From: a virus | Direction: 5' to 3' (one strand) | DNA: 36,717 nt | Virus record (IMG/VR): IMGVR_UViG_3300033144_003301 | Location: 1 to 36,717 of that record | Shown here: piece after piece, positions 18,700 to 33,493 of the stretch | Numbering within the stretch: the stretch's first letter is position 1 | Layout of the letters: every line of letters starts with the position of its first letter | Notes under the pieces: model-generated | Database searches by the model: none | What the model was told of the DNA's origin: nothing | The model's input: the letters and a program-made list of their open reading frames with translations, nothing else | Position numbers and translations under genes: made by a program

Positions 18700-19760
18700 A
18701 AATAATCTTCAAAAACATTTAAAGTAATCTTTCCTTTATCAAGATAAACCTTTTTTGGATAATCCCAAATATCTGTTTCTTGATGCCAAGCTAAATCCTC
18801 TAATAATTCTTGATAACCTCTTACAAGTTTACCGCTAGACTTTAAAGATCCACCATCCAATCCAACTCTTAAATCCATAGCACTCATTTGATAAATGAAT
18901 GGAGGATTATAGTCATTTTGTTCAGCTACTATAAACATTGTATTTTGTACAGAATAATCCTTAAAATCAGGATTATCACCAAAAACACGTACTGCTCCAT
19001 GAAAATACATAGATCCCTGTAAATAATATCTAAATTTAATATAACTATGCTCGAAGCTATAAACACTCTTAGCTGTAGTTTTTAAATCTATAATATAAAT
19101 TATTTTATTTACATGGTCTATTAAAAGAAGATCTATAAGACCTTTACAAGTCATGCCTTCCTCTTTCCATACTATAGGAACTTGCCACAAATGTTCAATA
19201 CCTTCACGCTCAACATCAGTAAAATATTCACAAGTAAAGTCATTAGTTTTAAGAGTTTCAACACAAGCTACAGCTTGTTCGTAATTCTCAAAGCTAATCA
19301 TTTCCTTCCCTATAGAAGATAGTAAAGACATAAAGAAATCTTGACCTCCTGTTTTTACTTTATTGAACAAGGTGTCTTCCTTCCAGGTCTGCCCATATCC
19401 CTCAAATTTAGCGTGTTTTAATATATCAGATTTAAAATCATCTAAAGCCAAAAAGGCTACTGTACCATTTTTACCTTTAGGATCATTTATATTTTCCACA
19501 TATTCATTGAATACCCCAGTAACAATATTCTTAATATTGTCACTAGGAAATTCGATAGAACATATATTATACTTTTTATCAAACTTTTCAGGTTCAGTTA
19601 ATAAACAATCAACTAAACTTCCAAATCTCATAAAAACTGTGGCTTCTTTATCACTTGATTCTTTCTTTTGCTTATAAAGTAAAGGAGAATAATCAAGATC
19701 ACCGAGACGAGAAGGAGAGGCTGCCTCTGTCTCTCTGAACTTATCGAACTCTACAATCAT
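18696..19760 (-). CDS. PD-(D/E)XK nuclease, RecB/Cas4-like exonuclease
   Basis: A 354-residue protein with the RecB-type nuclease pattern: 'FMRFGSLVDCLL' near the N-terminus; 'KGLIDLLLID' with Asp about 210; 'IYIIDLKTT' with Asp 225 and Lys 227 as the D-x-K catalytic pair; and 'YLQGSMYFHG' with the Gln of motif QxxxY about 248. Such enzymes process DNA ends in recombination or degrade host DNA. ATG 19760 is chosen because it follows the upstream TAG by four bases; the longer frame needs a TTG start inside the rIIB-like gene. It sits with rIIA/rIIB-like genes upstream and an unknown gene downstream. The fold call is strong; the exact substrate is unknown. Confidence 0.88.
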   Translation of the reverse strand: MIVEFDKFRETEAASPSRLGDLDYSPLLYKQKKESSDKEATVFMRFGSLVDCLLTEPEKFDKKYNICSIEFPSDNIKNIVTGVFNEYVENINDPKGKNGTVAFLALDDFKSDILKHAKFEGYGQTWKEDTLFNKVKTGGQDFFMSLLSSIGKEMISFENYEQAVACVETLKTNDFTCEYFTDVEREGIEHLWQVPIVWKEEGMTCKGLIDLLLIDHVNKIIYIIDLKTTAKSVYSFEHSYIKFRYYLQGSMYFHGAVRVFGDNPDFKDYSVQNTMFIVAEQNDYNPPFIYQMSAMDLRVGLDGGSLKSSGKLVRGYQELLEDLAWHQETDIWDYPKKVYLDKGKITLNVFEDYL

Positions 19761-19764
19761 TGTT

Positions 19765-20976
19765 CTATAATTCTTCGATTTCAAACATTTCTTCTTGCTC
19801 TATCTTATCGATATGCTCTCCAAAAGTTTTTATTATCTCTTTCTTCATTTCCAACCACTGACTATCAGTTAAAGCTGCATATTCAGAAGAATGATAAATA
19901 GAACCATTAACTCCAGCAAACGAAGAATGAACAAAATATTGAAGACATCTTATAGCTCCATCTGATTCATGAGATGCAGCAGGAACAGCTCCGACATGCA
20001 TAGGATCAACAAAAACATTATGCGTTACCGTAGTATCATGTTGATATCCTCTTATATAAGATAATCCTCCAACATGAAGCCCTTTAACACAAGAAGAATG
20101 ATTAGAAGTATTAACACAACTCCAATTTGGAAGTCTATGTGTACAACCAACTTTGATATGATGACCTGGTAGATCATTTTCTCCTCCTAATTCCTCACAA
20201 TAAAAAGAATCTCCACTTCCACCCATAACTGCAGGTTCAAATAATCTTTGTTCTACAAATTTAGGCTCATCATAACTGACAATTCCTGTATCTGGATCAA
20301 CTGTTTTTTTATATCTGTTCATTTCTACCACTTCTTCATCCTCATCAAGAGCATATTTTTTAAAGAGTTCTCGGGAAACCTTATAAGTACATAGTAAACC
20401 CTCTTGAGTTATTTTGACTTGGTAAACTGTAGCTCTTTCAGTAGCTACTTCTTCAGATAAACCTTCTTCTTCCATTAAATTCTTTACTACATCAGCGTGT
20501 ACATAAATAGCATTAATATAAGTAAATATTCTATCGGAAAAATCTGATTGAGCTTCCTTATTATATTTACGAAGAATTGGGTTTCTTAACCATCTTATCC
20601 AAAATTTAATCAAAGGTTGATGGTCTATTCCTTTATCTATAGAATCCTTAATTCTATTTACTAATTCAGTAGGCATAACAACTGAACTTACTATACCTTC
20701 CCCACCTCCTACTTTTAAATGGAAGTTTCCAGAAGCTTGGTTTACATAGATATCAGGACATTCAGATTCAATCATCTCTTTAAAGTTCTCTATAGTTAGA
20801 GCTTTAAATTCTTCAAGAATCTTATTCAACTTCTTTATAGAAGAAGCTTCATTGGCTTTCTTTTCCAGATCTAACATAGCAGAATATCTTTCGGGGCTAT
20901 AAGACACCCCGAAAGTTTCATTACCATAAGATCCAGTTAAAGAATCGCCTATACGATTAACTGTTATCATAGACAT
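19765..20976 (-). CDS. rIIB: rIIB-like protein
   Basis: A 403-residue protein resembling T4 rIIB. The C-terminal half holds the recognisable block: 'GLHVGGLSYIRGY' followed by 'VFVDPMHVGAVPA' and a 'AIRCLQYFV' strand, matching the rIIB pattern GLHVG...DPADV..VP...RV..Y. The N-terminal half contains 'GNFHLKVGGGEGIVSS' and a helical 'LIKFWIRWLRNP' segment, also in family style. In T4, rIIA and rIIB act together to resist exclusion by a lambda prophage; their biochemistry is poorly known. Here the rIIA-like gene lies just upstream, separated only by a 77-aa gene, supporting a joint function. Ends TAG; start ATG 20976, five bases after the upstream stop. Confidence 0.85.
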   Translation of the reverse strand: MSMITVNRIGDSLTGSYGNETFGVSYSPERYSAMLDLEKKANEASSIKKLNKILEEFKALTIENFKEMIESECPDIYVNQASGNFHLKVGGGEGIVSSVVMPTELVNRIKDSIDKGIDHQPLIKFWIRWLRNPILRKYNKEAQSDFSDRIFTYINAIYVHADVVKNLMEEEGLSEEVATERATVYQVKITQEGLLCTYKVSRELFKKYALDEDEEVVEMNRYKKTVDPDTGIVSYDEPKFVEQRLFEPAVMGGSGDSFYCEELGGENDLPGHHIKVGCTHRLPNWSCVNTSNHSSCVKGLHVGGLSYIRGYQHDTTVTHNVFVDPMHVGAVPAASHESDGAIRCLQYFVHSSFAGVNGSIYHSSEYAALTDSQWLEMKKEIIKTFGEHIDKIEQEEMFEIEEL

Positions 20977-20981
20977 TAGTT

Positions 20982-21215
20982 TTATTCATTAACTTCTGCT
21001 AAATCTTCTACAGGAGTTTCATTAAAATCATTTACTAACTCTATTTGATACTCTTTTGGAGTTCCTTTTTTCATTCCAAAAGCAATTAAAGCATCATTTA
21101 TCTCTGACGGTTTAACTTCAAATTTAGTAGCTAATTCAGCATTAGTCATACCAAGTCCTCTGTAAGTTGCTAGTTCTGTTTTTTTAAGAACTACTTTTCT
21201 AATTTTTGTTGCCAT
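20982..21215 (-). CDS. Small helix-turn-helix-like protein between rIIA and rIIB
   Basis: A 77-residue protein. Residues about 13-50 ('TELATYRGLGMTNAELATKF' and following) look like a helix-turn-helix: a G-M-T-N-A-E-L-A turn typical of 'is this factor bound' HTH folds, then a second helix ending 'ALIAFGMKK'. The C-terminal 25 residues are acidic. ATG 21215 is preceded by an A-rich leader and a 73-base gap. It lies between rIIB-like and rIIA-like genes, so it may regulate this cluster; that is an inference. No exact family assigned. Confidence 0.8.
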   Translation of the reverse strand: MATKIRKVVLKKTELATYRGLGMTNAELATKFEVKPSEINDALIAFGMKKGTPKEYQIELVNDFNETPVEDLAEVNE

Positions 21216-21265
21216 TTTTTTTAATTTTTAGCGATTAATAATTATATATAAATATACGAAAAATA

Positions 21266-21278
21266 AGGGACTTTCCCT
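21266..21278 (-). terminator. Terminator-like hairpin after the rIIA-like gene
   Basis: AGGGA (21266-21270) pairs with TCCCT (21274-21278) over a 3-base loop. On the minus strand the hairpin is followed by TATTTTTCG. It lies 10 bases after the rIIA-like TAG and about 50 bases before the next ATG. A short stem, so a weak or partial terminator. The following AT-rich stretch (21216-21260) could hold a promoter, but no clear consensus is visible. Confidence 0.5.
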
Positions 21279-21288
21279 CATATAAAGG

Positions 21289-23934
21289 CTACGTATAAGC
21301 CAGTTTATTTGTTTCTAAAATCTGCTTAATAAGTCCTTCTTGTTGCATAGTAATTTCTGCATAAGAAGAACCCTTATTAACAAGGTTATTAACATTGTTA
21401 AAAAGATCTTTTACAGGTTCAGCATACTCGATTAAAATCTGCAATTTATTATATATCTCTTGCTCTACAGCGATTGCGTTTTTAACATCGGGAATACCAA
21501 ACAACTCTTTACTCATTTTTAAAATGCCTTTATCATCTTCAGGATTTCCCTGAACATAAAGTTGCATCTCAAGAAGCTTATCAAAGAAAGGCATATGTTT
21601 TTTTGTAATATACTCTCCTCCATAGGAATGTCTACTATACTCAGTATAATGTTTAGTCCTATATTCTTTAAGCTCCTTATATATCTCTGCCATCTCAGCA
21701 TTAATACCAGAATAGTTATTGAAAAATTGTAAATCACTATCAATAACTTCATTTATTAAATTGGCCGTATGCCATTTGGTTAATCTATAATCCATAACTA
21801 TTGTATCTTTTATTAGGGTTTTGAAAAATCTATCTACATGACTAAATTCTTTTACATACTCAAGATTAGATAAACTCATCTTAAGTAATTTAAGATCGTC
21901 TCCATTGAAATCTTTCCCTCCACTCCAACTATGTATTTCATGACTTTCATAAAATCTTAAAAGATGTGCAACAGCATGTATCTTCTCAGTATCCTCATTA
22001 GAACCATAATAAATATCAGCATCTTCTTCCATAAGATCTGTTATTCTAGGCTCTATTTTGGTAAAAGTCCACCTCTTATTATCAGATCTTTGCTCATATC
22101 TTGGATACTGCGCTACTGTTCTTTTTTCAAACTGTCTTCTAAGCTCAGGAGTAAGTTCATCCTCCTCCTCTAACTTGCCTTCAGTCTCTTCAAAGTTTTC
22201 AGCCCAATCTTTAGGAACTTCATAAGCATCATAATCATATATATTAGGATGTTTTTCCTTCAAAGCTTTCTCAAAATACTTTTTCAAATATTCAAAAACT
22301 TTAATGTACTTATCTTCTATTTTCTTAGTCCATTCCTTCCTCTGTTCTTTATAAGTCTCCGCTACTTTGTCTAAAGATTTATCAAAATCATTGATTTCAA
22401 TAACAGTCATATCTCCCTTTATAGAAGTTATATACATATCCTTAGTACGAGCAGTTGTTCCTTTCTTAATAAAAACATGGTCTGCTCTAAAGCCACTCCA
22501 ATATTCTACAACATCTCGCTGAATTATATCTCTCTTTTTCTGATGATCATAGACTTTACGAAACTTCTTCACAGTAAATCCCCAAAACAAATCTTTAACA
22601 TTACGATAAGTTATATTGGGAAATTTAGGAAACTTAGGTTTAAGGCTGCTAGCCTCAACCAATCTACACATTCTAGATAAAGTTGGATCATTACTCACAT
22701 TAGATATAACTTGTATACAATTATTTAACCAGTCAAGAAAATCTTCTTGATCTAATTTAGAACTAATTATATCATTAGCTTCTTCAAGAACCTCATTAAA
22801 TTTACTCTTTATAAATTGTCTGGTATGATCATCCCAAATAACAGCTTCCCTAGATGGTGTAACACTTACTCCATCTTGAAGAACTATTTCTTTTTGAGTC
22901 TTTTCGTCAAACATAGTAGATCTAACTGGACACTTTACTCCCACATTACCATAGAGTTGTTCCATTTCTAATTCTCTAAAATCAATATAACCATAACATA
23001 CACCAGTTCTATTCTCAGCATCATCACCTTTTACAATAATAATATGAGGTCTACTGAATTGTCTGTTATCTGAAATAATAATGTTATCAGAATTATATGT
23101 AACATCCGCAAGAAAATCTATATCTGTTTCATCTCCATCCTCTTCAATATATTGAAATCTTACATCTTTAAAATAAAGTAGCTGAGATTTTACAGCATCT
23201 TTAAATTTAGATCTATGATGTCTTTTTGCTGGAACTATAACTTTAGTAAAGTTCTTATGCTTAACCTCTTCATAATATACTTTAGTACCATCAGAAAGAG
23301 TAATAAACTTATTTTTCTTTTTAGTTGCCAAATTGAATTTACCTATAACAAAATCTGTCTTATAGGCATAACAATTCATTGCGAATTTTTTACCATTATG
23401 AACAGTTATTATAGAAAAGTAATCACATCTTAAAGATAAAGCAGCCTTAGCTCCTAATCCCCAAGCACCTAACACAGCTCTATTATTTCTTTTAGTAGAA
23501 AATCCTAAAGAAACAATTCCCTCTAATCTAGACTCTCCAATTCCTACTCCATAATCTGTAACCGTAAACTCATCACAAAATCCAACTCCTTCTTTTTCTA
23601 TATAAACGATATCAACGTGATTATTACTTTGATCAAGATGATCTAAATTGTAATAGGTTGGAGCCCAGTTACTATCTTTATATTGATCTCCATCTCTTGT
23701 AATAAAATACTTTCCTGGATTTGCTTTCCTTTTAAGTATTTCTGTAGCAATCTCTTTTTCTCTTTGAGAATCGACAGCATTAGATACTAGCTCTCTTACT
23801 GTACTCTCTTCAGGCTTTTGATATTGAGTTGCTTGTAAAATATCAAAAACCATTTTCTTAGCGCCTTCGTCAATCTTCTTTTTATGACCAACTGCACCTT
23901 GAATCTTATTAATTTCTATCTCTTGTATTGCCAT
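21289..23934 (-). CDS. rIIA: rIIA-like protein with GHKL ATPase domain
   Basis: An 881-residue protein. The N-terminus has a GHKL (gyrase/Hsp90/histidine kinase/MutL) ATP site: N-box 'ELVSNAVDSQ' (Glu48, Asn52, Asp55), G1 box 'DYGVGIG' (127-133), and a Gly-rich lid 'GAWGLGAKAAL' (about 157-166). This is the known arrangement of T4 rIIA and its phage relatives. The remaining 650 residues are Lys/Glu/Tyr-rich and mostly helical, with no second enzyme motif visible. It overlaps the upstream gene by 26 bases and ends TAG. Together with the rIIB-like gene it probably counters host or prophage exclusion or stabilises the replicating chromosome near the membrane; the second point is inference. The ATPase assignment is strong, the rIIA label is backed by the neighbouring rIIB-like gene. 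Confidence 0.9.
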   Translation of the reverse strand: MAIQEIEINKIQGAVGHKKKIDEGAKKMVFDILQATQYQKPEESTVRELVSNAVDSQREKEIATEILKRKANPGKYFITRDGDQYKDSNWAPTYYNLDHLDQSNNHVDIVYIEKEGVGFCDEFTVTDYGVGIGESRLEGIVSLGFSTKRNNRAVLGAWGLGAKAALSLRCDYFSIITVHNGKKFAMNCYAYKTDFVIGKFNLATKKKNKFITLSDGTKVYYEEVKHKNFTKVIVPAKRHHRSKFKDAVKSQLLYFKDVRFQYIEEDGDETDIDFLADVTYNSDNIIISDNRQFSRPHIIIVKGDDAENRTGVCYGYIDFRELEMEQLYGNVGVKCPVRSTMFDEKTQKEIVLQDGVSVTPSREAVIWDDHTRQFIKSKFNEVLEEANDIISSKLDQEDFLDWLNNCIQVISNVSNDPTLSRMCRLVEASSLKPKFPKFPNITYRNVKDLFWGFTVKKFRKVYDHQKKRDIIQRDVVEYWSGFRADHVFIKKGTTARTKDMYITSIKGDMTVIEINDFDKSLDKVAETYKEQRKEWTKKIEDKYIKVFEYLKKYFEKALKEKHPNIYDYDAYEVPKDWAENFEETEGKLEEEDELTPELRRQFEKRTVAQYPRYEQRSDNKRWTFTKIEPRITDLMEEDADIYYGSNEDTEKIHAVAHLLRFYESHEIHSWSGGKDFNGDDLKLLKMSLSNLEYVKEFSHVDRFFKTLIKDTIVMDYRLTKWHTANLINEVIDSDLQFFNNYSGINAEMAEIYKELKEYRTKHYTEYSRHSYGGEYITKKHMPFFDKLLEMQLYVQGNPEDDKGILKMSKELFGIPDVKNAIAVEQEIYNKLQILIEYAEPVKDLFNNVNNLVNKGSSYAEITMQQEGLIKQILETNKLAYT

Positions 23935-24265
23935 TTTTTATTAAATTAAATAGTTTATCATATATTATTTGCCGTGTTTCTGGAAGTGATTCTTTACTTA
24001 TTATTACTAATCTACATTTTCTATAAGCTTGTATACGTTCAGGATATATTCTTCCATTCTTCTTTATAGCTTCTATCATATATTCTTCTAACCCAATAAA
24101 CTCAGGATTTCCTATCCAATGTATTAGTTTACCATCATTATCTTTATAGCTAGAACTACTATATCCTAAAAATAGATTAATTGTCATTCCTCCACCACTC
24201 CAACCTACAGCAACGATATCCCCAAATTTTAAGGGCCTATCGCATAAGTCTAACATTTCTTTCAT
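23909..24265 (-). CDS. Unknown protein, 118 aa
   Basis: Not recognised. The N-terminal part ('PLKFGDIVAVGWSGGGMTIN') reads like a small beta-barrel (SH3-like) start, with a pattern common in small phage proteins; the C-terminal part is helical and basic. The ATG at 24265 overlaps the TAA of the RusA-like gene by one base, and the end overlaps the rIIA-like start by 26 bases, so it is co-expressed with both. No catalytic residues can be proposed. Confidence 0.8.
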   Translation of the reverse strand: MKEMLDLCDRPLKFGDIVAVGWSGGGMTINLFLGYSSSSYKDNDGKLIHWIGNPEFIGLEEYMIEAIKKNGRIYPERIQAYRKCRLVIISKESLPETRQIIYDKLFNLIKNGNTRDRN

Positions 24266-24702
24266 TATTTATAAATTTTAATCCATACTCCTGGATTCTC
24301 TTTATTATAAGAATACCAGACATTTTCTTTCTTATAAGGAAAAGGAATTAAATTATCCATATCATCTTCAGGTATAAAATCATGCGCTACCATAAGATCT
24401 GCAAGAATCTGAACTGCATTATGAAAATCAAATTTATGTTTTGATCCTCTTACAAAATGAAATCCTATCTTATAAGGAGGTTCTCCAATCATTATAGGAC
24501 GAAAGAATTTTCTATTTTTAGCAAATTCATTGTCCCGTGTTTTATAACCTGTCACTGTCTTCTCTCTAACAGAATACTTTACTATACCTTGTTTCTGAAG
24601 GTATTTTCTAACTGTCTTTGATGCAAATACTCCTCTAGTAGTCTTTATCTTACTATTCTTTAGAGAAGGGACGTTTCCTGGTACGAATAACTCGTGCTTC
24701 AT
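24265..24702 (-). CDS. RusA-like Holliday junction resolvase
   Basis: A 145-residue protein. It starts 'MKHELFVPGNVPSLKNSK', matching the RusA family start (hydrophobic strand, P-G, P-S-x-N/K). The metal-binding region 'KHKFDFHNAVQILADLMVAHDFIPEDD' segment lies at about residues 88-114: Asp92, Asp102 and Asp113/114 are candidates. RusA cuts four-way junctions made by recombination or replication. Odd: the usual D-x-D-N reads D-F-H-N, so the second acidic residue is replaced by His, which may weaken or alter metal binding. The start is fixed by the family N-terminus, despite a 50-base overlap with the upstream gene. Confidence 0.75.
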   Translation of the reverse strand: MKHELFVPGNVPSLKNSKIKTTRGVFASKTVRKYLQKQGIVKYSVREKTVTGYKTRDNEFAKNRKFFRPIMIGEPPYKIGFHFVRGSKHKFDFHNAVQILADLMVAHDFIPEDDMDNLIPFPYKKENVWYSYNKENPGVWIKIYK

Positions 24703-24895
24703 TTCCTATTATATTTTTTTGTGCTAAATCTTGCCACTCAGTATAAAGTTGATTCTTTTCAACATCCGCCCCCCTGGTATCATCCAGCATACGGCCCACA
24801 AGAGGGTCTCCCCTCTCAGCCATTTCCTGTATTCCAAAAGGATTGTTAGGGTATAGATCTACTACCTTCTGTATAAAAGTATTTGTATACTTCAT
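24653..24895 (-). CDS. Unknown protein, 80 aa
   Basis: Not recognised. A charged, soluble small protein ('YPNNPFGIQEMAERGDPLVG' in the middle, basic tail 'RTRKRPFSKE'). It starts at ATG 24895 and overlaps the upstream primase end by 50 bases (24846-24895) and the RusA-like start by 50 bases. The long overlaps on both sides reduce certainty, but the frame is intact and its codons are phage-like. It may be an accessory factor of the replication genes. Confidence 0.6.
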   Translation of the reverse strand: MKYTNTFIQKVVDLYPNNPFGIQEMAERGDPLVGRMLDDTRGADVEKNQLYTEWQDLAQKNIIGNEARVIRTRKRPFSKE

Positions 24896-25877
24896 TTTTT
24901 ACTATTTTTAAAGAATTAATACCATATTTCTTAACATAATCACTTACATCTTTCGCTCCAAATTCTGGAGTAAACATAAAAGGAGTTATGTCATACAATT
25001 TTTTCATACGATTAGCAGAAACTATTCCTCTATAATCGTAATCATAATTTGAAATAATTATTTCAAACCTTTCTTTTAATTCAGATATAATCTCAACTGA
25101 AGGAATGGTCCCCTCACTTTGTGGAGCTATAGAGGGTACCCCTATAGAATCTAATACTACAATATCCTTCATACTTTTAGTGATGACTACTACCTTCCCT
25201 GTTTGGGGAAGTTGTTTCCATCCTTGTATAATATCCGTTGAGGCATTAGACAACCATTTGAACTCTTCATTATACGGTTGATATATCTTATAGACATAAT
25301 CACCGAAATGATAACAATAAATACATTCATCTTTTTTAAATTTAAACCATTTGTTATTTACTTTTAATGCTTCTACAGGGCTGATATTAAACTTTCTTAA
25401 CTGAGCTACAGTAACTCCATAACTTCCCCAAAATTTTTTATCAGAACTAGCATTCCATTCTCTTCGACAAACTCGTATACTACATGTTATTTGTAACTTA
25501 TCTACGTCTACTCCAGAAGCTTTTCCCACATATCCTTTAGTAAGATTTCTTTTAGGTAAGGGTCCATCATTAAGACCTAAATTGAAATCATAATCTATGC
25601 ATTTCAAAGCTCCTATAAAGCTCAAATTATACATCTGCATTACAAGATCAAAGCAACTTCCGCTATCTCCTGTTCCATGGTCTTTAAATAAGATTTTCCT
25701 TACTGTATTAGGACTTCTATAAATATCAAAGGAAGGTTGAGAGTCCTTTCTCAAAGGAGAACGGACAGTACCCAATTTAAAACCTTTTCCTATATAATAT
25801 TTAAAGATATCATACTCTGTCACACACTTGAGAATCTCTTGAATTGTAAGTTGCTTTACATTTTTAGTTCCATACAT
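24846..25877 (-). CDS. DnaG-type (toprim) primase
   Basis: A 343-residue protein that would make RNA primers for replication. Residues about 40-95 ('SPLRKDSQPSFDIY', then 'DHGTGDSGSCFDLVMQMY') follow the layout of the DnaG zinc-binding domain, but the zinc ligands are missing. The toprim part has 'VVVITKSMKDIVVLDSIG' (about 229-246), in the place of the usual 'EG..D' motif, and 'NYDYDYRG' (277-284), the D-x-D-x-x-G metal motif. The conserved Glu is replaced by Lys-Ser; similar TKS-x-KD forms are known to me from other phage primases. ATG 25877 lies 16 bases after a strong hairpin. Upstream is the SSB-like gene; a joint primosome with the DnaB-type helicase at 27923 is likely. Confidence 0.85.
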   Translation of the reverse strand: MYGTKNVKQLTIQEILKCVTEYDIFKYYIGKGFKLGTVRSPLRKDSQPSFDIYRSPNTVRKILFKDHGTGDSGSCFDLVMQMYNLSFIGALKCIDYDFNLGLNDGPLPKRNLTKGYVGKASGVDVDKLQITCSIRVCRREWNASSDKKFWGSYGVTVAQLRKFNISPVEALKVNNKWFKFKKDECIYCYHFGDYVYKIYQPYNEEFKWLSNASTDIIQGWKQLPQTGKVVVITKSMKDIVVLDSIGVPSIAPQSEGTIPSVEIISELKERFEIIISNYDYDYRGIVSANRMKKLYDITPFMFTPEFGAKDVSDYVKKYGINSLKIVKNEVYKYFYTEGSRSIP

Positions 25878-25893
25878 ATTTGTAGAAAAAGGA

Positions 25894-25911
25894 AAGGGGC
25901 CGAAGCCCCTT
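25894..25911 (-). terminator. Strong hairpin (UUCG loop) between SSB-like gene and primase
   Basis: Minus-strand reading: AAGGGGC-TTCG-GCCCCTT, a perfect 7-bp stem closed by the very stable UUCG tetraloop, then TCCTTTTTC. It begins 21 bases after the SSB-like stop and ends 16 bases before the primase ATG. It looks like an intrinsic terminator or a 3'-end stabiliser that lowers primase relative to SSB expression. Confidence 0.85.
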
Positions 25912-25932
25912 AAACAAACAAATAAAACTTAA

Positions 25933-26508
25933 CTAGAAAGGATCCCCATCAGTTACAGCTTCAGGAGTATCTACTCCATTCATTTCAAAATCTGCAGTAG
26001 GAAGAGCTTTATAATCCCATTTATTACTTCTATCGAATTTAAGCTTACTTACCTCATCAGTTACAGGAGTATATTCAGCTCCGTCTTTCGTAGCTTCAGC
26101 AAATGGAGGTAAACCAATATTTGCTTTATCCCAACTACCTTTTCCTTCTTTTCCTTCTATCTCTTCACCAATAAACTTAACTCTAAGAACTTTATTCTTA
26201 AGAGCTTTAGTTAAATTAGTGCCGTAATCTTCAAGATTATCTGCCTCAATTTTATCAAGAGTCTCTGCCTTGATACACTTAGTAGCTAGATGTTTAATCT
26301 TCTCTAAAGATTTACCCATAGCTTTCTCTGACATATAAAAAGCCGCTTCAGCTATTTTACCTTCTTTGGTTTCAAAAAAGAAAGTTAACCGTGGAGAATA
26401 TCCTTCTGGTTCTTCTCCCTTAACGTCCTTTACCTTTACGATATGGACTCCTGGTTCGAGAAATTTACTTTCGAACACTTTTTCTTCTGTGTTTTTTGTA
26501 CTATACAT
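25933..26508 (-). CDS. Putative single-stranded DNA-binding protein
   Basis: A 191-residue protein. The core ('GVHIVKVKDVKGEEPEG', 'LTFFFETKEGKIAEAAFYMS', 'KVLRVKFIGEEIEG') is beta-rich like an OB-type or related phage ssDNA-binding fold. The C-terminal 25 residues are disordered and acidic, ending 'DGDPF', like the SSB tail (D-D-I-P-F) that docks partner proteins. The gene lies directly downstream of a Sak4-like ATPase, an arrangement seen with phage recombinases and their SSBs. ATG 26508 is preferred over the longer frame, which would overlap the ATPase gene. Function is from tail, size and neighbours; the fold is not proven. Confidence 0.7.
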   Translation of the reverse strand: MYSTKNTEEKVFESKFLEPGVHIVKVKDVKGEEPEGYSPRLTFFFETKEGKIAEAAFYMSEKAMGKSLEKIKHLATKCIKAETLDKIEADNLEDYGTNLTKALKNKVLRVKFIGEEIEGKEGKGSWDKANIGLPPFAEATKDGAEYTPVTDEVSKLKFDRSNKWDYKALPTADFEMNGVDTPEAVTDGDPF

Positions 26509-26533
26509 ACACTTTTTTTTAAAAATTAATAGT

Positions 26534-27322
26534 TTAACGATAAATTGATTTCCAATCAAAGCTAATATTCTGTCCCTTTAGATGTTCACATCTAGAGCCA
26601 CAATTAACTTCATCAGAAGTATTAAAATTGATGAATACTTTATCTTCATCACGATATAAATAACCAATTGCATCTGCGTGAGCACACACAATTCTTTTTA
26701 ATTTGCCTGTTAGATCTAAATCCTTAGCGCTTACTTCTTTTCCTTTCTTTTCTATTTGTTTGTCTAGAAGGTGACCAACTAAAATAATATGGTCAGCTAA
26801 AGTATAGATCTTATCAAGCCACTTTTTCATTGCAACTCTAAGCCAAAAATAACCACCTCCGTTAGGGAGTGTTAATACAGAAGACCATTTAGAACGAGGA
26901 AGTACAAGACCATCCTTAGCTCTATTAAAGTTCTTTCCTGTTCCGCTGCGCATGTAAAGTTGAGTTCCTTCCCATTCACACCACTCTTCTAACTTGGTTA
27001 CTGTGTCTAAAGCTACATATTTATAAGGCTTCCCTGCCTTATGTATTGCTCTTCCAATTTCAGAAAGATAATATTTCCCTTCTTTTACTCTCTCTTTTTC
27101 CTGGTCTTCCTTTTCTCCTACAGGAGGTTCAAGACCGAGTACATTAGTTTTTAGAGCATCAAGGAATTTACTACCATTTTCTAAATCCAGAATAAGACAA
27201 TTAGGTAATTGACTCAATACGGTTGTCTTACCCACCTTTGGCGGACCGTATATCAATAATATATGAGGACTTGTATAAGTCGCCTTTGTTTTTTTACTTG
27301 GTAACGTTATCTCCATTTCCAT
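26534..27322 (-). CDS. Sak4-like RecA-fold ATPase (phage recombinase)
   Basis: A 262-residue AAA/RecA-type ATPase. Walker A is 'GPPKVGKTT' (from about residue 26), after 'PHILLIY'; the following 'NCLILDLENGSKFLD' holds acidic residues near 46-48; a second core strand reads 'YKYVALDTVTKLEEW'; later 'ADHIILVGHLLDK' carries a sensor-like His. This layout is that of Sak4-type phage nucleotide-binding proteins that promote annealing and recombination of single strands, usually with a phage SSB, which here is the next gene. Start ATG 27322 overlaps the upstream gene by 29 bases; a second ATG two codons later is possible. Confidence 0.85.
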   Translation of the reverse strand: MEMEITLPSKKTKATYTSPHILLIYGPPKVGKTTVLSQLPNCLILDLENGSKFLDALKTNVLGLEPPVGEKEDQEKERVKEGKYYLSEIGRAIHKAGKPYKYVALDTVTKLEEWCEWEGTQLYMRSGTGKNFNRAKDGLVLPRSKWSSVLTLPNGGGYFWLRVAMKKWLDKIYTLADHIILVGHLLDKQIEKKGKEVSAKDLDLTGKLKRIVCAHADAIGYLYRDEDKVFINFNTSDEVNCGSRCEHLKGQNISFDWKSIYR

Positions 27323-27653
27323 CTATTTTATAATTTATGATTTCTTCAGCTACTTCTTCACTTAAAGATTTCTTCTTAATTCTATTTCCACACAAATATT
27401 GTTTACTTGGTATGTCTGCATACTTTGCTTGAACTATTCTTCTTGCTCTTGATACTGAAAATATAGAAGGAAGCTTCTTATGATGCCATGAATACAAAGC
27501 ATCCATTAAAGTCATATCTAACATATGATTTGTAGGATTATCATTAATCTTATTTATCAAATGAAAATAAAGTTTATAGTCACAATCTCTAGTATCGGGC
27601 TCTTTTTCTAAGAGCTCCTCAACTACATCTGCATATTTTACTACTTTAGACAT
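27294..27653 (-). CDS. Unknown protein, 119 aa
   Basis: Not firmly recognised. The N-terminus 'VVEELLEKEPDTRDCDYKLY' has the L-x-x-x-P-x-x-R-D-x-D pattern that I associate with small phage proteins. Further on is 'IFSVSRARRIVQAKY', a basic S-R-x-R-R-x-x-Q helix that could bind nucleic acid. It sits between a coiled-coil protein and the Sak4-like ATPase, overlapping them by 8 and 29 bases, so it is part of the same transcript. A DNA-binding accessory role in replication is plausible but unproven. Confidence 0.8.
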   Translation of the reverse strand: MSKVVKYADVVEELLEKEPDTRDCDYKLYFHLINKINDNPTNHMLDMTLMDALYSWHHKKLPSIFSVSRARRIVQAKYADIPSKQYLCGNRIKKKSLSEEVAEEIINYKIDGNGDNVTK

Positions 27654-27921
27654 GTGAGTTTGTTAAAGGCTCTATGTTAATAGGCTCATTAGTAGGTTCT
27701 AACTGTTCAGCCATAGCTACAGAAAGAGACTCTATTAAAAAATGTAATTCCATTTTAGCCTCCTTTACTTTCTTAGAATGGTAAGTAACATCCCATTTTA
27801 ATTTTTCAATTCTGTCTTTTGTACTTTGAACATCAAGCTCAGTAAAATCAGCTGTCTCTGCAAGAATTTGTTCTGCTTCATCCTTTAATTTGGATATTTC
27901 TTTAAAATTATTTTTTTCCAT
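27646..27921 (-). CDS. Small coiled-coil protein, 91 aa
   Basis: An all-helical, charged protein; 'EISKLKDEAEQILAETADFT' and 'STKDRIEKLKWDVTYHSKKV' give heptad-like spacing of hydrophobic residues over most of its length. No known family. ATG 27921 is chosen: it lies one base after the TAA of the helicase gene, with an A-rich leader; the longer frame would overlap that gene by 44 bases. It may be a scaffold or loader-type partner in the replication block, from position only. Confidence 0.8.
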   Translation of the reverse strand: MEKNNFKEISKLKDEAEQILAETADFTELDVQSTKDRIEKLKWDVTYHSKKVKEAKMELHFLIESLSVAMAEQLEPTNEPINIEPLTNSHV

Positions 27922-27922
27922 T

Positions 27923-28906
27923 TTAATTAACTTTAGTGCTCCACGCTTTATTTGGAGGGGGAACATACTCCAGTACTCTATTATGTTTTAAATCATTAAC
28001 CATTTTAGCGATTACAGGGTCTCCATCTCTAACTTTTAAATAATGCCAGTAGATGAATCCTTCTGTAGATAGCTTATTTGGCCCATACTCTCTTATTCCC
28101 AGCATTTCAGGACGATGAGGTACCAAAACCACGTCTGAATACTGATAAAGAGCGTCAGCGCCAAATATGTCCGCTTTAGTTGGATAATGCAGGTCAGAGT
28201 TTTGCCTGCGTTCTGTACTTTCTATAGATCTATTTAATTGAGATAGAAATATAAATGAACTATCTATATTTTTCTTAATTTGATTTGCTTCAAAAGATAA
28301 ATCATATAAAGTTTCCATTTGATCTTTTCCTGGAGTTTTCTTAACAAGAATACTATGATCTAATGTGATCAATAATTTCTTATCTCTTACTTCAGGTAAA
28401 TCATTTATGCGATATATAGCCTCCCTTATCTGTACGGGAGTTCCTGGCATATCTACATAATAAATTGGTAAATTCTTTATACTTTCTATATATTCTTTAG
28501 CAAGTTCAAGATCTTCTTTAGTAAGGTTTTTATCTTTTTCTTCTAAATCAGCAGAATATAATTGCTTTACACTCTTATTCAATTTAGCCGATATTTTCCT
28601 CCCTACTAATCTTCGTGCTAACATTTCAAAATTGAAAGATAACACTGCAAATTTTTCATCAGGATTCTGTTTGAACAAAGATGTTTCCATTTCGTTAAGA
28701 ATGGCTGTCTTACCACTACCTGACATTCCTGCAATAGTGATAATACTGCCCCATTCTATACCATTCATAGAAACTTGGTTGAACTTCTTCCAACATGTCT
28801 TTAAAGATTTCCGTTTACCAGACATCCTATCCAACATATAAGATAGCTCTTCCTTTGCTGCCTTATGAAAGGGTTTATGAACTAATCTAGATGACTTTTG
28901 ATCCAT
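27923..28906 (-). CDS. DnaB-type replicative helicase (RecA-fold domain only)
   Basis: A 327-residue ATPase that would unwind DNA at the fork. Motifs: Walker A 'GMSGSGKTA' (60-68), H1a-like 'FAVLSFNFEMLARRL' (about 86-100), Walker B 'KLLITLDHSIL' with Asp183, and 'FIFLSQLNRSIE' with the H3 Gln223; a C-terminal 'YWHYLKVRDGDP' strand includes a Lys/Arg pair that may be the arginine finger region. Bacterial DnaB is about 470 residues; the N-terminal primase-interacting domain is missing, as in short phage helicases. It overlaps the upstream 185-aa gene by 20 bases. Confidence 0.88.
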   Translation of the reverse strand: MDQKSSRLVHKPFHKAAKEELSYMLDRMSGKRKSLKTCWKKFNQVSMNGIEWGSIITIAGMSGSGKTAILNEMETSLFKQNPDEKFAVLSFNFEMLARRLVGRKISAKLNKSVKQLYSADLEEKDKNLTKEDLELAKEYIESIKNLPIYYVDMPGTPVQIREAIYRINDLPEVRDKKLLITLDHSILVKKTPGKDQMETLYDLSFEANQIKKNIDSSFIFLSQLNRSIESTERRQNSDLHYPTKADIFGADALYQYSDVVLVPHRPEMLGIREYGPNKLSTEGFIYWHYLKVRDGDPVIAKMVNDLKHNRVLEYVPPPNKAWSTKVN

Positions 28907-29444
28907 AGGACTCTTCTTTTACTTCTGCATTTTCATCTAATAAGTGCTCATACTTTTCCCAAGTTCTTTGTCTAATCCAAGTTTCACTATTCTGTAAATA
29001 TTGTAAAGTACCCCTCATTTCTTTAAGCTGGGCATCTATACATCTAATTATTTTCTTGTGTAACTCTGGATTAGACTGAACTACATTCATATACAGCTTT
29101 TTAGCTGTATTATTTGTCGCTGCATCAGGGTCTTTTGCTCTTAATATTCTATTACCTCCATGTCCATTTGGAACTTTAAAAGGCATTCTCGTGCAGAATG
29201 CATACCACATGGTATCTTTATCTCCACTAATTAAGTTAATAAACTTCTGTCTAACAGTCCAATCATCTAATTCAATTCCTGATTTTTTCATCCATCCTTG
29301 CTCTTCCAAACCGTGGGTATCTATATCATCACAAATTTTCCAACATAGATCGGTCTTTTTTTTAAATAAAAGGAGCAAAAAAATATACTCAGACGCTGTA
29401 AATCCTTGACTTACAAGCATCTCTGTGTCGAGATTAATTATCAT
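28887..29444 (-). CDS. Unknown protein upstream of the helicase, 185 aa
   Basis: Not recognised. Opens with a hydrophobic-rich helix pair ('FTASEYIFLLLLFKKKTDLC'), then 'WMKKSGIELDDWTVRQKFIN', resembling a small winged-helix or tri-helical DNA-binding layout; the C-terminal half is helical and charged. It is the first gene before the DnaB-type helicase, with a 20-base overlap, which is the place where phages often encode a helicase loader or replication initiator. That role is only inferred. ATG 29444; the upstream gap is 35 bases. Confidence 0.8.
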   Translation of the reverse strand: MIINLDTEMLVSQGFTASEYIFLLLLFKKKTDLCWKICDDIDTHGLEEQGWMKKSGIELDDWTVRQKFINLISGDKDTMWYAFCTRMPFKVPNGHGGNRILRAKDPDAATNNTAKKLYMNVVQSNPELHKKIIRCIDAQLKEMRGTLQYLQNSETWIRQRTWEKYEHLLDENAEVKEESYGSKVI

Positions 29445-29479
29445 ATTTCTTACGGTACTTGTTACATAAAATCGCTATG

Positions 29480-29749
29480 CTAATATACAAAATTTTCTGA
29501 ATCTGACCAATCATCTGGCCAATGTTCTTTGGCAATTAATAGTCTATCTTCGTACTCTATACTTGGCATATAATATTCCACAATTCTATCTTCTGTTACT
29601 TCTTTTTGAATAGTCTTTGTTACTAAATCTGCTAACTTAGAGTAAGTATTCAATTCATCTTCCGAATACTTACTCCTAATCAGCTTCAATGCAAGTTCTA
29701 TTTCAACATTCTTAACTTGCTCGGTTATTATTACTTTTATTCTTCCCAT
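29480..29749 (-). CDS. Unknown acidic protein, 89 aa
   Basis: Not recognised. Starts 'MGRIKVIITEQVKNVEIELA', a beta strand then a helix, followed by a helical stretch, and ends with the acidic, aromatic tail 'WPDDWSDSENFVY'. ATG 29749; the 144-base gap upstream holds the structured motif at 29773-29847. Expression may therefore depend on that element. Confidence 0.75.
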   Translation of the reverse strand: MGRIKVIITEQVKNVEIELALKLIRSKYSEDELNTYSKLADLVTKTIQKEVTEDRIVEYYMPSIEYEDRLLIAKEHWPDDWSDSENFVY

Positions 29750-29772
29750 TATTTCTAAATAAAACCCATACT

Positions 29773-29847
29773 ATAGGGCAATCTTACCAGAGGGCATCGC
29801 CTTTTACTGCCTGGTTACCAGGAGTGATATCATTCTCTTCGCCCTAT
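29773..29847 (-). ncRNA. Structured intergenic motif, copy A (candidate RNA)
   Basis: ATAGGGC (29773-29779) pairs with GCCCTAT (29841-29847), a 7-bp stem closing a 75-base unit. Inside are CCTGG-TTA-CCAGG (29810-29822), GGC-ATC-GCC and a weak GAG/CTC hairpin, so the fold is multibranched. It is GC-richer than its surroundings and no long reading frame covers it. Bases 29789-29819 match the order and spacing of copy B near 17158. Size and shape recall a tRNA, but the T-loop signature and a 7-base anticodon loop are absent. Strand follows the neighbouring genes and is not certain. Confidence 0.5.
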
Positions 29848-29893
29848 CCTCGCCACTGATCGTTTTTTCTATAATATGGTTAGGTGAGTACAC

Positions 29894-30244
29894 CTATAAA
29901 CCGTCATGCAGAGCTTTACTATACTTCTTTGCTCTGTTCATTAATTTAAAAGGAATCTTTGAGTCATACCAATGCAATTGATCATCAACTACAACGCCTA
30001 AATACCTAAAGGTTTTAATTCCCGCTTTCATGGTCTCTATAATTTGGACCACATTCTTTCCCTGCTGGGCATACTTCGCCCATTGAGAGTTTTTAAATGG
30101 ATTCTGCTTCATGAAAGTTATTTCATGAGGAAGATTCTTTATATAAAAGCTCTTTACTAGCTTACCTTTAAATTTTTCAGATGTTTTTAGTTGAGAAATG
30201 CACTGCTCTAGATTCCTTATTATGTGAATCTTTAGTAGTTTCAT
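29894..30244 (-). CDS. Unknown protein, 116 aa
   Basis: Not recognised. A basic protein with alternating beta-like and helical stretches ('GIKTFRYLGVVVDDQLHWYD' in the middle) and a Lys/Arg-rich end. The ATG at 30244 lies inside the helicase gene (68-base overlap); the only other ATG (30112) would remove 44 residues. It ends TAG; the frame stays open for 29 codons beyond this stop, which looks like chance. Linked to the SF2 helicase by overlap. Confidence 0.75.
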   Translation of the reverse strand: MKLLKIHIIRNLEQCISQLKTSEKFKGKLVKSFYIKNLPHEITFMKQNPFKNSQWAKYAQQGKNVVQIIETMKAGIKTFRYLGVVVDDQLHWYDSKIPFKLMNRAKKYSKALHDGL

Positions 30245-31490
30245 TATTTCTCTGTTTTAAGATATCATTAATATTATTCACCCAGCGTATTCTACTTGGA
30301 TCAGTAGTCGCCTGTGAGCTTCTTAACCATTTTTCATCCTGAGAACTAGCAACATACAAATTATAAATATAACTTGTTTTGTCTTCTTGAAATCTAAGGC
30401 ACCTGCCTCTTCTTTGAATATGAGCTTTAGCTCCACTAGTTCTAGAAGCAATAATAATAACTGGCAACTTAGGTAGATCCATACCCTCATTAACTGCCAG
30501 ACAAGTTGAAAGATGAGTTACTTTAGTTCTTCCATCTTTAAACTTATTCATTGCTCCTTCTCTATCTTTTACTTTAGAATGATATGGAATAATATCATTT
30601 CTGCCTACGCAAATATGATCAGCAAAAAGAGTAGCTTGTGAAAATATCACAGACTTCTCAATTTTAAGCTTATCTATCAACTCTCGCACAGCTTTAATTT
30701 TAGATGGCATTTCGTAAAGCATTCTTTTACGCTTACCCATAACCTTCCAAAATTGAATTGCTAATTGATACTTAATCTTCTCATCTCTAGATCTTTGCTT
30801 TGCAGGAATAGCTCCTATAGCCTTCATTAGACTATTAGCATTTCCAAAAGCCATTCCTGGCCCTCCTAATCTTTTCTCAAGAGAAAAATAAGTTTGTTGT
30901 ATTTTATTATAAGCTTTTGTTTCCATTACATTCATTAGAACAGGAATATTGTATTCAACATACGGAGATATTACACCTAATTCTACACCCTTATCTGTTG
31001 TAAGAGTATAGGCAACAGGCGCAATTTTACGAGCAACAGGTATCTTCTTATCAGGAATCCAAGCAGATAGACCTAATATTCTATCATACGTATTCCTTTC
31101 AAAGAATTTGTGATACTCATAAAGTTTACCTTTGTAATCTTTATCTTCTGGTAAATAGTTGTGAATTTCATCCGCAACAACCAGATCATAATGTTTATTC
31201 TCCCATTTGTAAACTGTTTGAATACATTTTATATCAACTTTCTTTAAGAGTTCTGTTTTTTTCCATTTTTTAAACTCCTTTGGGAAAGTATCATCTCGGA
31301 TAATCTCAGTTGGACAAATAATTAAAACATTAGCTTCAGGATTAAGAGAGAAAACCCACTCAATTGCCCGTATAGCTGCATATGTTTTACCAGCACCTGT
31401 ACATAATTGTAAGGTACCTTTACATTTTCTTTTCGCCCAAGCATTAAGAGATTCTCGTTGTACTAAATCTTTAGCTTTTAATGTGTCCAA
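30177..31490 (-). CDS. Superfamily 2 DNA helicase
   Basis: A 437-residue SF2 helicase, UvsW/type III-restriction-like. Motifs: Q-region 'QRESLNAWAKRKCKGTLQL', motif I 'CTGAGKTYAA' (31-36), Ia 'VLIICPTEII', motif II 'VVADEIHNYL' (DEIH, 107-110), motif III 'LGLSAWIP' in the place of S-A-T, 'SVIFSQATLFA' (motif IV), 'CLAVNEGMDLP' (motif V) and 'IQRRGRCLRF' (motif VI, with Gln359, Arg363, Arg366). It would remodel forks or recombination intermediates. Start: no ATG precedes motif I, so TTG 31490 is the best start; it overlaps the polymerase end by 13 bases. This suggests coupled and possibly low-level translation. Confidence 0.92.
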   Translation of the reverse strand: MDTLKAKDLVQRESLNAWAKRKCKGTLQLCTGAGKTYAAIRAIEWVFSLNPEANVLIICPTEIIRDDTFPKEFKKWKKTELLKKVDIKCIQTVYKWENKHYDLVVADEIHNYLPEDKDYKGKLYEYHKFFERNTYDRILGLSAWIPDKKIPVARKIAPVAYTLTTDKGVELGVISPYVEYNIPVLMNVMETKAYNKIQQTYFSLEKRLGGPGMAFGNANSLMKAIGAIPAKQRSRDEKIKYQLAIQFWKVMGKRKRMLYEMPSKIKAVRELIDKLKIEKSVIFSQATLFADHICVGRNDIIPYHSKVKDREGAMNKFKDGRTKVTHLSTCLAVNEGMDLPKLPVIIIASRTSGAKAHIQRRGRCLRFQEDKTSYIYNLYVASSQDEKWLRSSQATTDPSRIRWVNNINDILKQRNNETTKDSHNKESRAVHFSTKNI

Positions 31491-33493
31491 TAGTCAGTAA
31501 TAACAGGTACTGCTGTAAGTTCTACAGTTTTGCAAAATACCTTTCCAGCCTCTTCCATAGAAGCTTTTAATGCATCCGCTAATGTCTCTGCTATTTCTTT
31601 TGGACAATCCAACAATATTTCATCATGCACGACATTCGGCATGAAGACTTTAAATAATAGATCTTTTTCTATTAAATACCTAAACATAAACACTCCTGCC
31701 ATCTTAGTGATGTCTGCAGAAGTACCTTGAATAGGATAATTTAAAGCATTTCTTTCTATATTTCCTTTCCAGCTAAATACTTTACGTACCAAAGGACCTA
31801 ACTCTTCACGATACTCTTGTGATTGTACAGCCTTTTCTTTACTGTATTTAACCCAAAAACCATTCTGTTTGGTTATGGTTTGTTTAACTTTAAAATCACT
31901 AAAAGAATCCACATAAGATTTTCTTTTAGTAAAATCATTAAACAATATATATCCATTCTTAAGTGCTCTTTCTTTCACTCTTTTAAAATGATTTTTTAGA
32001 CCAGGAAATGCATCAAAATATGCCTCATATACTTTTTCTCCTTGTTTAGTTGAAATTGCTAAGTTCTCTGCTATAGTATAACCTGTTCCACCATAATTAA
32101 TAGCAAAACCTGCACCTTTAGCAATCTGTCTCTTTTCAGGATGTTTCTTTTTAATCTCTTTTAGATCTACATCTGCAAGTTCAGGAAAAATCTTAGATGC
32201 TACAAATGAATGCATATCTCCAAGACCCTTCTTGTAAAAAGAAATAATATCCTTATCTTGTGACTGGTTTGCTAGAACTATCTGTTCCTGTCCACTATAA
32301 TCAGCCACAATAAGAACATTTCCTTTAGATGCTATAAAACAACTTCTTGTTCTATCATCTCTTGGAATATTCTGTAAATTAATATACTCTTCTTTAGTGG
32401 CTTTATTTTTACCACCACAGGAAAGTCTACCTGTATTCATAATCTGAGTATACTGAGTATGTATCTTATTAGTCTCAGGATTTATCTGATCTATGAATGT
32501 CTGTCCATAAGTACTAACAATTTTATCATATCCTTTATACTTAAGATACTTTTCAATTAACTCAGGAGCTTTCTTTCGTTGAGGTCTAATTACTTTAGCA
32601 TCAACAGAGTCTTTAAAGAACCCTGTCTTATCATCTTTCACTTCAGTATCAACCCCTATCGTTTTAAATAAAGGAATTACCTGTTTAGATGATGACCATA
32701 ATATGCCACATTGTGGTTCATTAGCTTTAGGATTAAATAGATCTAGCTGTGGGTCCACTTGTATGAACTGTTCTATATCTTTATCTAATATCCAATTATC
32801 TAAATCAGCCTTTGCTTTACGTAAGTTTTCAGTATCCTCTTTCATCTTCCTCTCCCATTTCTGGGTGTTAAGTTTAAAACCAGAAAATTCTATGTAAGCC
32901 AGTACCTTAACATACTCATTGTCAAGAAATAAGGCTACATGTAAATCTTCCTCATTTATATGTACCATTTGCTTACGCATAATCTCATGCAGGTACTTAA
33001 CATCATTAGCTGCATATACAATTACAGCTGTAGATAATCCCTCTTTATGAATATTTCCTCGAATCGTTTTATCCATTTCTTTCTTACAATATCTGTAAAC
33101 AAGAACATCTAAAGCTTTTCTATGAGAATATATCCCAGTACTTAATATCCTTTCTGCTAAGAAAGTATCATAAATTTTATTTGGAACTATCTTTCTACGA
33201 TACAGAAATTTAAGATCAAACTTAGCATTCTGCATTATTATAATCTTAGATTCAAGAAGTTCTTTAAACTTCCTAATATCTACAGTTTCACAATCAACTA
33301 CATATTGATTTTTTGCATCTCCAAACTGAGCAGATAATAATTTACATAAATAAGGATCAAACCCAGTAGTTTCCGTATCGAAAGCTACATGAGTGTGATC
33401 CTTAAAATAATTTATTATATCTTCTACAGTTGCAAATGAGAAATGTTTATCTACTTTAAATAAACTTTTCTGATTAGTAACTAAATATATCAT
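31478..33493 (-). CDS. DNA polymerase, family A, with 3'-5' exonuclease
   Basis: A 671-residue replicative polymerase. Exonuclease (DEDDy type): 'VAFDTETTG' (Asp39, Glu41), 'QNAKFDLKFL' (Asp93), 'YAANDVKYL' (Tyr160, Asp164). Polymerase: motif A 'IVADYSGQEQ' (Asp398, Glu403), motif B 'RQIAKGAGFAINYG' (Arg455, Lys459, Phe463, Tyr467), motif C 'NVVHDEILLD' (His623, Asp624, Glu625). All catalytic residues are present. Phe463 corresponds to Phe667 of Taq, which disfavours dideoxynucleotides. No 5' nuclease domain is present. About 110 residues separate motif B from the 'YPIQGTSAD' segment, a little long for the family. ATG 33493 overlaps the upstream TGA by four bases. Confidence 0.97.
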   Translation of the reverse strand: MIYLVTNQKSLFKVDKHFSFATVEDIINYFKDHTHVAFDTETTGFDPYLCKLLSAQFGDAKNQYVVDCETVDIRKFKELLESKIIIMQNAKFDLKFLYRRKIVPNKIYDTFLAERILSTGIYSHRKALDVLVYRYCKKEMDKTIRGNIHKEGLSTAVIVYAANDVKYLHEIMRKQMVHINEEDLHVALFLDNEYVKVLAYIEFSGFKLNTQKWERKMKEDTENLRKAKADLDNWILDKDIEQFIQVDPQLDLFNPKANEPQCGILWSSSKQVIPLFKTIGVDTEVKDDKTGFFKDSVDAKVIRPQRKKAPELIEKYLKYKGYDKIVSTYGQTFIDQINPETNKIHTQYTQIMNTGRLSCGGKNKATKEEYINLQNIPRDDRTRSCFIASKGNVLIVADYSGQEQIVLANQSQDKDIISFYKKGLGDMHSFVASKIFPELADVDLKEIKKKHPEKRQIAKGAGFAINYGGTGYTIAENLAISTKQGEKVYEAYFDAFPGLKNHFKRVKERALKNGYILFNDFTKRKSYVDSFSDFKVKQTITKQNGFWVKYSKEKAVQSQEYREELGPLVRKVFSWKGNIERNALNYPIQGTSADITKMAGVFMFRYLIEKDLLFKVFMPNVVHDEILLDCPKEIAETLADALKASMEEAGKVFCKTVELTAVPVITDYWTH

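Follow-up and report, generated by a model that had tools for sequence, protein, structure and literature searches.

A candidate cis-acting structured RNA within the replication gene run of a crAss-like phage

The locus and its phage

The window analyzed here is a virus record of 36,717 nt (36.7 kb; IMGVR_UViG_3300033144_003301). Its minus-strand genes include, by Pfam and PHROG, a family A DNA polymerase, a helicase, a DnaB-like helicase, a primase and a Sak4-like protein, and within this set a gap separates two small ORFs (Table 1). A preliminary description of the DNA called this gap the only sizeable one inside the replication block, which is a fair statement, the other gaps longer than 10 nt in 17884–31490 measuring 73, 55 and 35 nt. 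Inspection by eye revealed conserved terminator-like hairpins in two of these three (25878–25932 and 21216–21288, minus strand): GGGGC-UUCG-GCCCC with a U-rich tail and GAGGGA-AAG-UCCCUU with a U run.

Table 1. Features of the locus in window coordinates
Feature	Position	Strand	Remarks
DnaB-like helicase gene	27923–28906	-	further downstream, same gene run; Pfam DnaB_C, PHROG DnaB-like
89-aa gene	29480–29749	-	downstream of the element; no family match
Long hairpin inside the 89-aa coding sequence	29631–29684	-	arms 29684–29664 and 29651–29631
Gap	29750–29893		144 nt, between two minus-strand ORFs (116-aa and 89-aa)
Whole structured element (P0 hairpin, then P1/P2/P3 domain)	29763–29896	-	from the L016 alignment and consensus fold; pairs kept
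P1 3' arm CUAUAGUAUGG	29766–29776	-	its end lies 16 nt from the ATG of the 89-aa gene
P2, 6-bp hairpin GGCGAU...AUUGCC	29777–29801	-	13-nt loop; two one-sided changes, none breaking a pair
P3, 8-bp hairpin ACUCCUGG-UAA-CCAGG(C)AGU	29806–29825	-	one bulged C; stem invariant
Nearly invariant single-stranded core UCAGUGGCGAGGAU(A/U)GGGCGAAGAG	29835–29859	-	24/25 identical, versus 63% at fourfold-degenerate sites
P1 5' arm CCAUAUUAUAG	29869–29879	-	pair probability 0.98–1.0
P0, 6-bp hairpin UAGGUG-UACU-CACCUA	29881–29896	-	6/6 pairs kept, one U-A to U-G
75-base fold of the preliminary description	29773–29847	+	present in the window, not the conserved structure
116-aa gene	29894–30244	-	upstream of the element; no family match; 52% identical to the L016 copy
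Family A DNA polymerase gene	31478–33493	-	upstream; Pfam DNA_pol_A

The giant RNA polymerase of crAss-type phages carries a DxDxD motif. A 4387-aa ORF of the window contains the fitting sequence DFDID, and the 139 phage records matched by 1000 aa of this ORF include Cellulophaga phage phi14:2 with its catalytic RNA polymerase subunit (E 3e-33). Among six of these matches compared by taxonomy, five belong to Crassvirales and one, Fpv2, does not, and the family A DNA polymerase of the window matches (41.5%) that of the uncultured phage cr108_1, also classed in Crassvirales. Based on the giant RNA polymerase match, the DFDID motif and the replication genes, the window is taken as a crAss-like phage.

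The two proteins flanking the gap have so far resisted annotation. The 89-aa protein had no family match in Pfam or PHROG at E 0.001, the predicted structures of the 89-aa and 116-aa proteins were of low confidence (pLDDT 60 and 64), and fold searches with both returned nothing at E 0.001. No homologue of the 116-aa protein was detected in 16 other records. A weak match to the 89-aa profile (14 bits, E 5e-4 for that record) was seen in L050 at 1501–1707, corresponding to 4269–4475 of G009, where by eye it adjoins a related polymerase gene on the opposite strand; although below 0.001, it was not accepted.

Relatives of the locus and sequence constraint

A polymerase search of viral contigs gave 13 loci. 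Searches of viral contigs with the helicase, the DnaB-like protein, the 89-aa protein and the 185-aa protein (its gene lies in the downstream run together with the 89-aa and DnaB genes) each returned the same two contigs. These are the only carriers of the element among the viral contigs searched: the twin contig of the window (L002, identical to it) and the diverged contig of locus L016, whose helicase is 80% identical to that of the window. All comparison therefore rests on one pair, the window and L016, that is, on two distinct sequences. Absence of the element from several contigs means little as these are fragments; for example, L003 ends before the place in question. The right end of L003 and the left end of the L016 contig, both from the same sample, have a short end sequence in common, and they are probably neighbours in one phage.

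In both phages the element has the same position and the same gene order around it, directly before the start codon. A model of the element built for this analysis (R1) detects it in the window and in the contig of L016, with a best E of 0.45 in 16 other records (7 viral contigs and 9 named phages, seven of the nine from Crassvirales). BLAST of the element returned only matches of 21 to 28 nt in phages and plasmids, and none in E. coli. Three pattern matches were discarded, one (L021) falling in a coding region of an unrelated phage and two in genome contigs having little in common with the element beyond the 20-nt pattern.

One of the polymerase genes, in L012, is split near residues 464–467 by about 1.1 kb (5460–6606). 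One frame of this insert was translated and proved full of stops, and no Rfam model reached threshold in L012. The polymerase gene of a Leptolyngbya phage is likewise split, with a LAGLIDADG gene between the parts.

The 89-aa protein is 62% identical to its L016 copy. The gene looks real, to judge from codons 62–79, where 6 of 18 codons differ by synonymous changes only, with no amino-acid change. Over the entire gene the coding signal is weak, as the amino acid is changed in 34 of 89 codons and codon positions 1, 2 and 3 differ 25, 18 and 26 times.

Fourfold-degenerate sites of the shared minus-strand block are 63% identical (595/950). By comparison with these sites, identity is elevated both in 29763–29857 (86%, 82/95, P about 3e-7) and over the whole gap (80%, 115/144, P about 6e-6). 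The raw identity is unexceptional, 15.7% of the 100-nt windows of this block, which is mostly coding, being as high or higher. Two stretches of the helicase gene, 31231–31330 and 31380–31479, are 98% and 95% identical to the relative versus the fourfold average of 63%, which may reflect local recombination or RNA-level constraint.

From a tRNA-like fold to a larger element on the minus strand

The preliminary description had reported in the gap a tRNA-sized, cloverleaf-like fold with a 7-bp end stem and three inner hairpins. The letters of the stem are indeed there (ATAGGGC at 29773–29779 and its complement GCCCTAT at 29841–29847), and the 75-nt piece is somewhat more stable when folded than its dinucleotide-shuffled controls (z -1.92 on the plus strand, with 7/200 as good, and z -2.67 on the minus strand, with 1/200). 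On the other hand, the lowest-energy fold of the plus strand has two inner hairpins and no cloverleaf. When the whole gap is folded on the minus strand, an 11-bp outer stem replaces the 7-bp stem, using some of its bases, and in both phages the pair probability is 0.98–1.0 for the outer stem versus at most 0.01 for the 7-bp stem. The latter keeps 6 of 7 pairs in L016, with one mismatch and no compensating change. Hence, a folded element is real, but it is larger than described, lies on the other strand and is closed by a different stem.

The judgement that this is not a canonical tRNA agrees with ARAGORN, which called no tRNA gene in the window, L016, L002, L027 or L028. A degenerate tRNA or a tRNA decoy, both of which had been put forward, is likewise unsupported and was rejected. 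The likeness to tRNA is confined to the length of the fragment and its 7-bp closing stem; there is no tRNA call and no Rfam tRNA match, the inner hairpins are two, and the closing stem is not conserved, one of its seven pairs being broken in L016. An Rfam scan, which had been proposed as a check, gave no match at gathering score in the window, L012, L027 or L028, nor in either of the two phages. A relaxed scan (E up to 10) produced sub-threshold matches only, with no family common to both phages; the names returned (mir-728, SpF03 and others) differ between the two and were treated as chance, the mir-728 match falling on the coding-region hairpin described below.

On the minus strand both sequences fold with P0, P1 and P3. 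P0 comes first, and the 116-aa gene has its stop codon (TAG) in the three bases with which this hairpin begins. By eye, reading past this TAG the two phages enter different frames through a 1-nt indel. L016 retains all 11 pairs of P1, one of them altered on both sides (C-G to U-A) and two on a single side. In P3 a single loop base varies, and the inner five pairs have a probability of 0.89–1.0. The support for P2 is uneven, with pair probabilities of 0.80–0.95 in L016 and only 0.13–0.23 in the window, where the interior of the lowest-energy fold differs. The loop of P2 (GCCC, 29792–29795) could pair with GGGC (29841–29844) to form a putative pseudoknot with invariant pairs. In total, 31 of 31 nested pairs are kept in both phages (25 invariant, five with one-sided changes and one with a double change), or 35 of 35 when the pseudoknot is included.

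In both phages a U-rich/A-rich hairpin (29735–29764, minus strand) has the start codon of the 89-aa gene in its loop, possibly by chance in view of its AT-rich composition. A candidate leader peptide, MPSGKIAL, encoded in both phages (by eye) by an 8-codon ORF inside P2/P1, was dismissed, because it shows two silent differences, which is too few, and one of them is explained by the pairing of P1.

The consensus fold of the minus strand reaches -36.2 kcal/mol (z -6.05, 0/1000 column shuffles as low) versus -23.1 kcal/mol for the plus strand (z -3.24, 4/1000). As a control, 149-column windows were taken along the alignment; 257 were kept after dropping those with more than 15 gap columns. Column-shuffle z is low throughout these windows (mean -1.14, sd 1.71, n=257), and the element has the lowest energy among the control windows listed (together with one overlapping window) and only the fourth-best z. 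The three windows above it by z comprise one over the coding-region hairpin and two overlapping windows near 20.8–21.0 kb. Single-sequence folding gives the element only a mild advantage over dinucleotide shuffles (window z -2.17, 3/200; L016 z -1.45, 16/200). Covariation is thin: shuffles of the 3' letters equal the scores of the element in 260 of 500 cases, and a register slid by +2 also contains one double change. Overall, a predicted sense-strand leader structure, conserved directly upstream of the start codon, is present in both phages.

A second hairpin inside the 89-aa coding sequence

The control scan also brought out a long hairpin within the 89-aa gene, with a z of -7.4 (window) and -5.3 (L016). 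When 60-nt windows were scanned (both strands, step 5, scored only if below -15 kcal/mol, 30 shuffles each), this hairpin had the best z of all scored windows, -10.3, the same place on the plus strand reaching -8.8. Its 21 pairs comprise 13 invariant pairs, three with double changes, two with one-sided changes and three broken in one sequence. In its own register 92.9% of cells are paired versus at most 42.9% in slid registers. Shuffles of the 3' letters equal its scores in 23 to 46 of 500 cases, and the register slid by -1 contains two double changes too. In the 25 codons around the hairpin, positions 1, 2 and 3 differ 10, 3 and 5 times, and such a distribution, with 10 first-position versus 5 third-position differences, is not expected from protein constraint alone.

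A probable cis-acting leader and its alternatives

The element is conserved, the pairing of P1 and of the coding-region hairpin is conserved with it, and the element folds better on the sense strand. With moderate confidence, we interpret it as a structured RNA that would act in cis within the sense transcript of the replication gene run of a crAss-like phage. Most likely it would be the leader of the 89-aa/185-aa/DnaB gene run, a function suggested by two distinct sequences. Among the four options of the preliminary description (a decoy, a degenerate tRNA, a leader for the 89-aa gene, part of an origin), the leader is the best supported one, in view of a conserved sense-strand fold ending 16 nt before the ATG, so the earlier interpretation survives in this part and fails in its tRNA options. 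Both an origin and a free small RNA appear less likely than a cis-acting leader.

We presume a transcript that crosses the polymerase and helicase genes and then the 116-aa gene before it reaches the gap. Here the RNA would form a small hairpin over the stop codon, followed by a closed domain (P1 enclosing P2, P3 and the core) that would end just before the 89-aa start codon, and a second, long hairpin would form within the coding sequence. As 24 of its 25 positions are conserved, the core is suggested as a binding site for a protein or a small molecule. Such binding, or cutting by an RNase at the long hairpin, may set the amount of the 89-aa protein versus the upstream polymerase/helicase part and, possibly, the output of the 185-aa and DnaB genes in the same way. 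The element would thereby control the message, or mark it for processing, at the border between the polymerase/helicase and the 89-aa/185-aa/DnaB parts. How an effect on translation or termination would be exerted is constrained by the signals in the gap. No clear Shine-Dalgarno site was seen by eye before the 89-aa gene, hence a simple switch hiding such a site is not evident. No intrinsic terminator (a GC-rich hairpin followed by a U run, with presence in both phages as the criterion) was found in the gap of the window; a loose terminator scan of the L016 gap picked P0 in the sense direction (6 pairs, 3 of them GC, tail TTCTGTATTA) and the P3 hairpin in the antisense direction.

A role in RNA processing or stability, unlikely in our estimate, would have an RNase III-type enzyme cut the long hairpin, with P0 and P1 protecting the new ends, and one message split into a polymerase/helicase part and an 89-aa/185-aa/DnaB part. 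The long stem in the coding region and the hairpin on the stop codon would suit this role, as would the location of the element between two gene groups, yet the nearly invariant single-stranded core (24/25) would be left unexplained. We regard as improbable a free-standing small RNA, either processed or transcribed from a promoter of its own, with host or phage targets elsewhere. The compact P1-closed domain with its unpaired conserved core is compatible with such an RNA, and a promoter-like match (9/12), one of 8 in the region versus 3.8 (sd 1.8) in shuffles, occurs at 29900–29871 of the minus strand; however, this match is weak, none is listed at the corresponding place in L016, and neither the window nor the 38-kb relative has a second copy of the element.

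Equally improbable is a DNA-level element, such as a replication origin or a protein-binding dyad. All seven one-sided changes (five in the element and two in the coding-region hairpin) either create or remove a minus-strand G-U pair and keep a standard pair only in minus-strand RNA, while on the plus strand they would be A-C mismatches. If both strands were equally likely, 7 of 7 would be expected about once in 128 cases, a figure that is really less striking because it was minus-strand folding that selected the structures. The strand argument is further weakened by the window over the coding-region hairpin, for which the plus strand (z -9.1) is better than the minus strand (z -6.9). A DNA element would be at home among replication genes, and the inverted repeat of the coding region, which scores well on both strands, folds as DNA better than shuffles (z -5.6 and -6.3). 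The intergenic element folded as DNA shows no advantage over shuffles on either strand (z -0.28 and -0.58), which, with one-sided changes that suit the minus strand only, disfavours the origin option. Nor does the GC skew turn here; in the window it turns near 17 kb, where genes converge. Finally, it is highly improbable that the gap is an ordinary conserved one having no RNA function. In favor of chance are the number of sequences (two), the modest single-sequence z and the fraction of 100-nt windows (15.7%) that are as conserved or more; against it, identity is far above that of fourfold sites, pairing, strand and position agree, and a second covarying hairpin adjoins the element.

Relation to known RNA structures

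The T4 gene 32 pseudoknot and the T4/RB69 gene 43 operator hairpin are autoregulatory mRNA leaders of phage replication genes. The element described here resembles them as a predicted sense RNA structure that precedes a start codon in a phage replication region and includes conserved unpaired bases. It differs in its larger domain and in that the 89-aa protein has no family match. With riboswitch-type leaders of Rfam it shares a closed multi-helix domain and a conserved single-stranded core upstream of a gene; unlike these, it reaches the gathering score of no Rfam family in either phage, no switch involving a terminator or a ribosome site was seen in the window, and no metabolic gene is recognised directly downstream. 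RNase III processing hairpins occur in phage operons such as those of T7 and in the lambda N leader. They have in common with the locus a long double-stranded stem in a phage transcript, presumed in the present case; here the stem is part of a coding sequence, and a separate conserved domain lies beside it.

No Rfam family fits the element, a new RNA that belongs to a familiar kind (structured mRNA leaders) and has been found only narrowly. A bolder reading, which we offer tentatively and hold to be rather doubtful, is a novel phage RNA switch, in which the core would bind a phage or host factor and, together with the coding-region hairpin, time the expression of replication genes in a crAss-like clade. 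Such a regulator would consist of two parts, one in the leader and one in the coding sequence, unlike the leaders compared above. Among the matches listed in the open-access literature, none dealt with an element of this sort in crAss-like phages, which is weak evidence, the listings being short and most titles off topic; in passages of PMC8040213, 'crass' occurs 0 times.

If confirmed, the intercistronic domain would give crAss-like phage research a concrete RNA element, next to replication genes, that lends itself to testing, and its partner a case of a hairpin maintained inside a coding sequence via compensating changes. Strong coding-region hairpins occur elsewhere as well. For example, a 10-bp GC-rich hairpin, CUUUCGGGGU/GCCCCGAAAG, lies near the start of an RIIB-like gene (20880–20930, minus strand); its arms are identical in the contig of L016, its single-sequence z is -4.0, and the 149-column window over it has the best consensus z (-7.6) of the 257.
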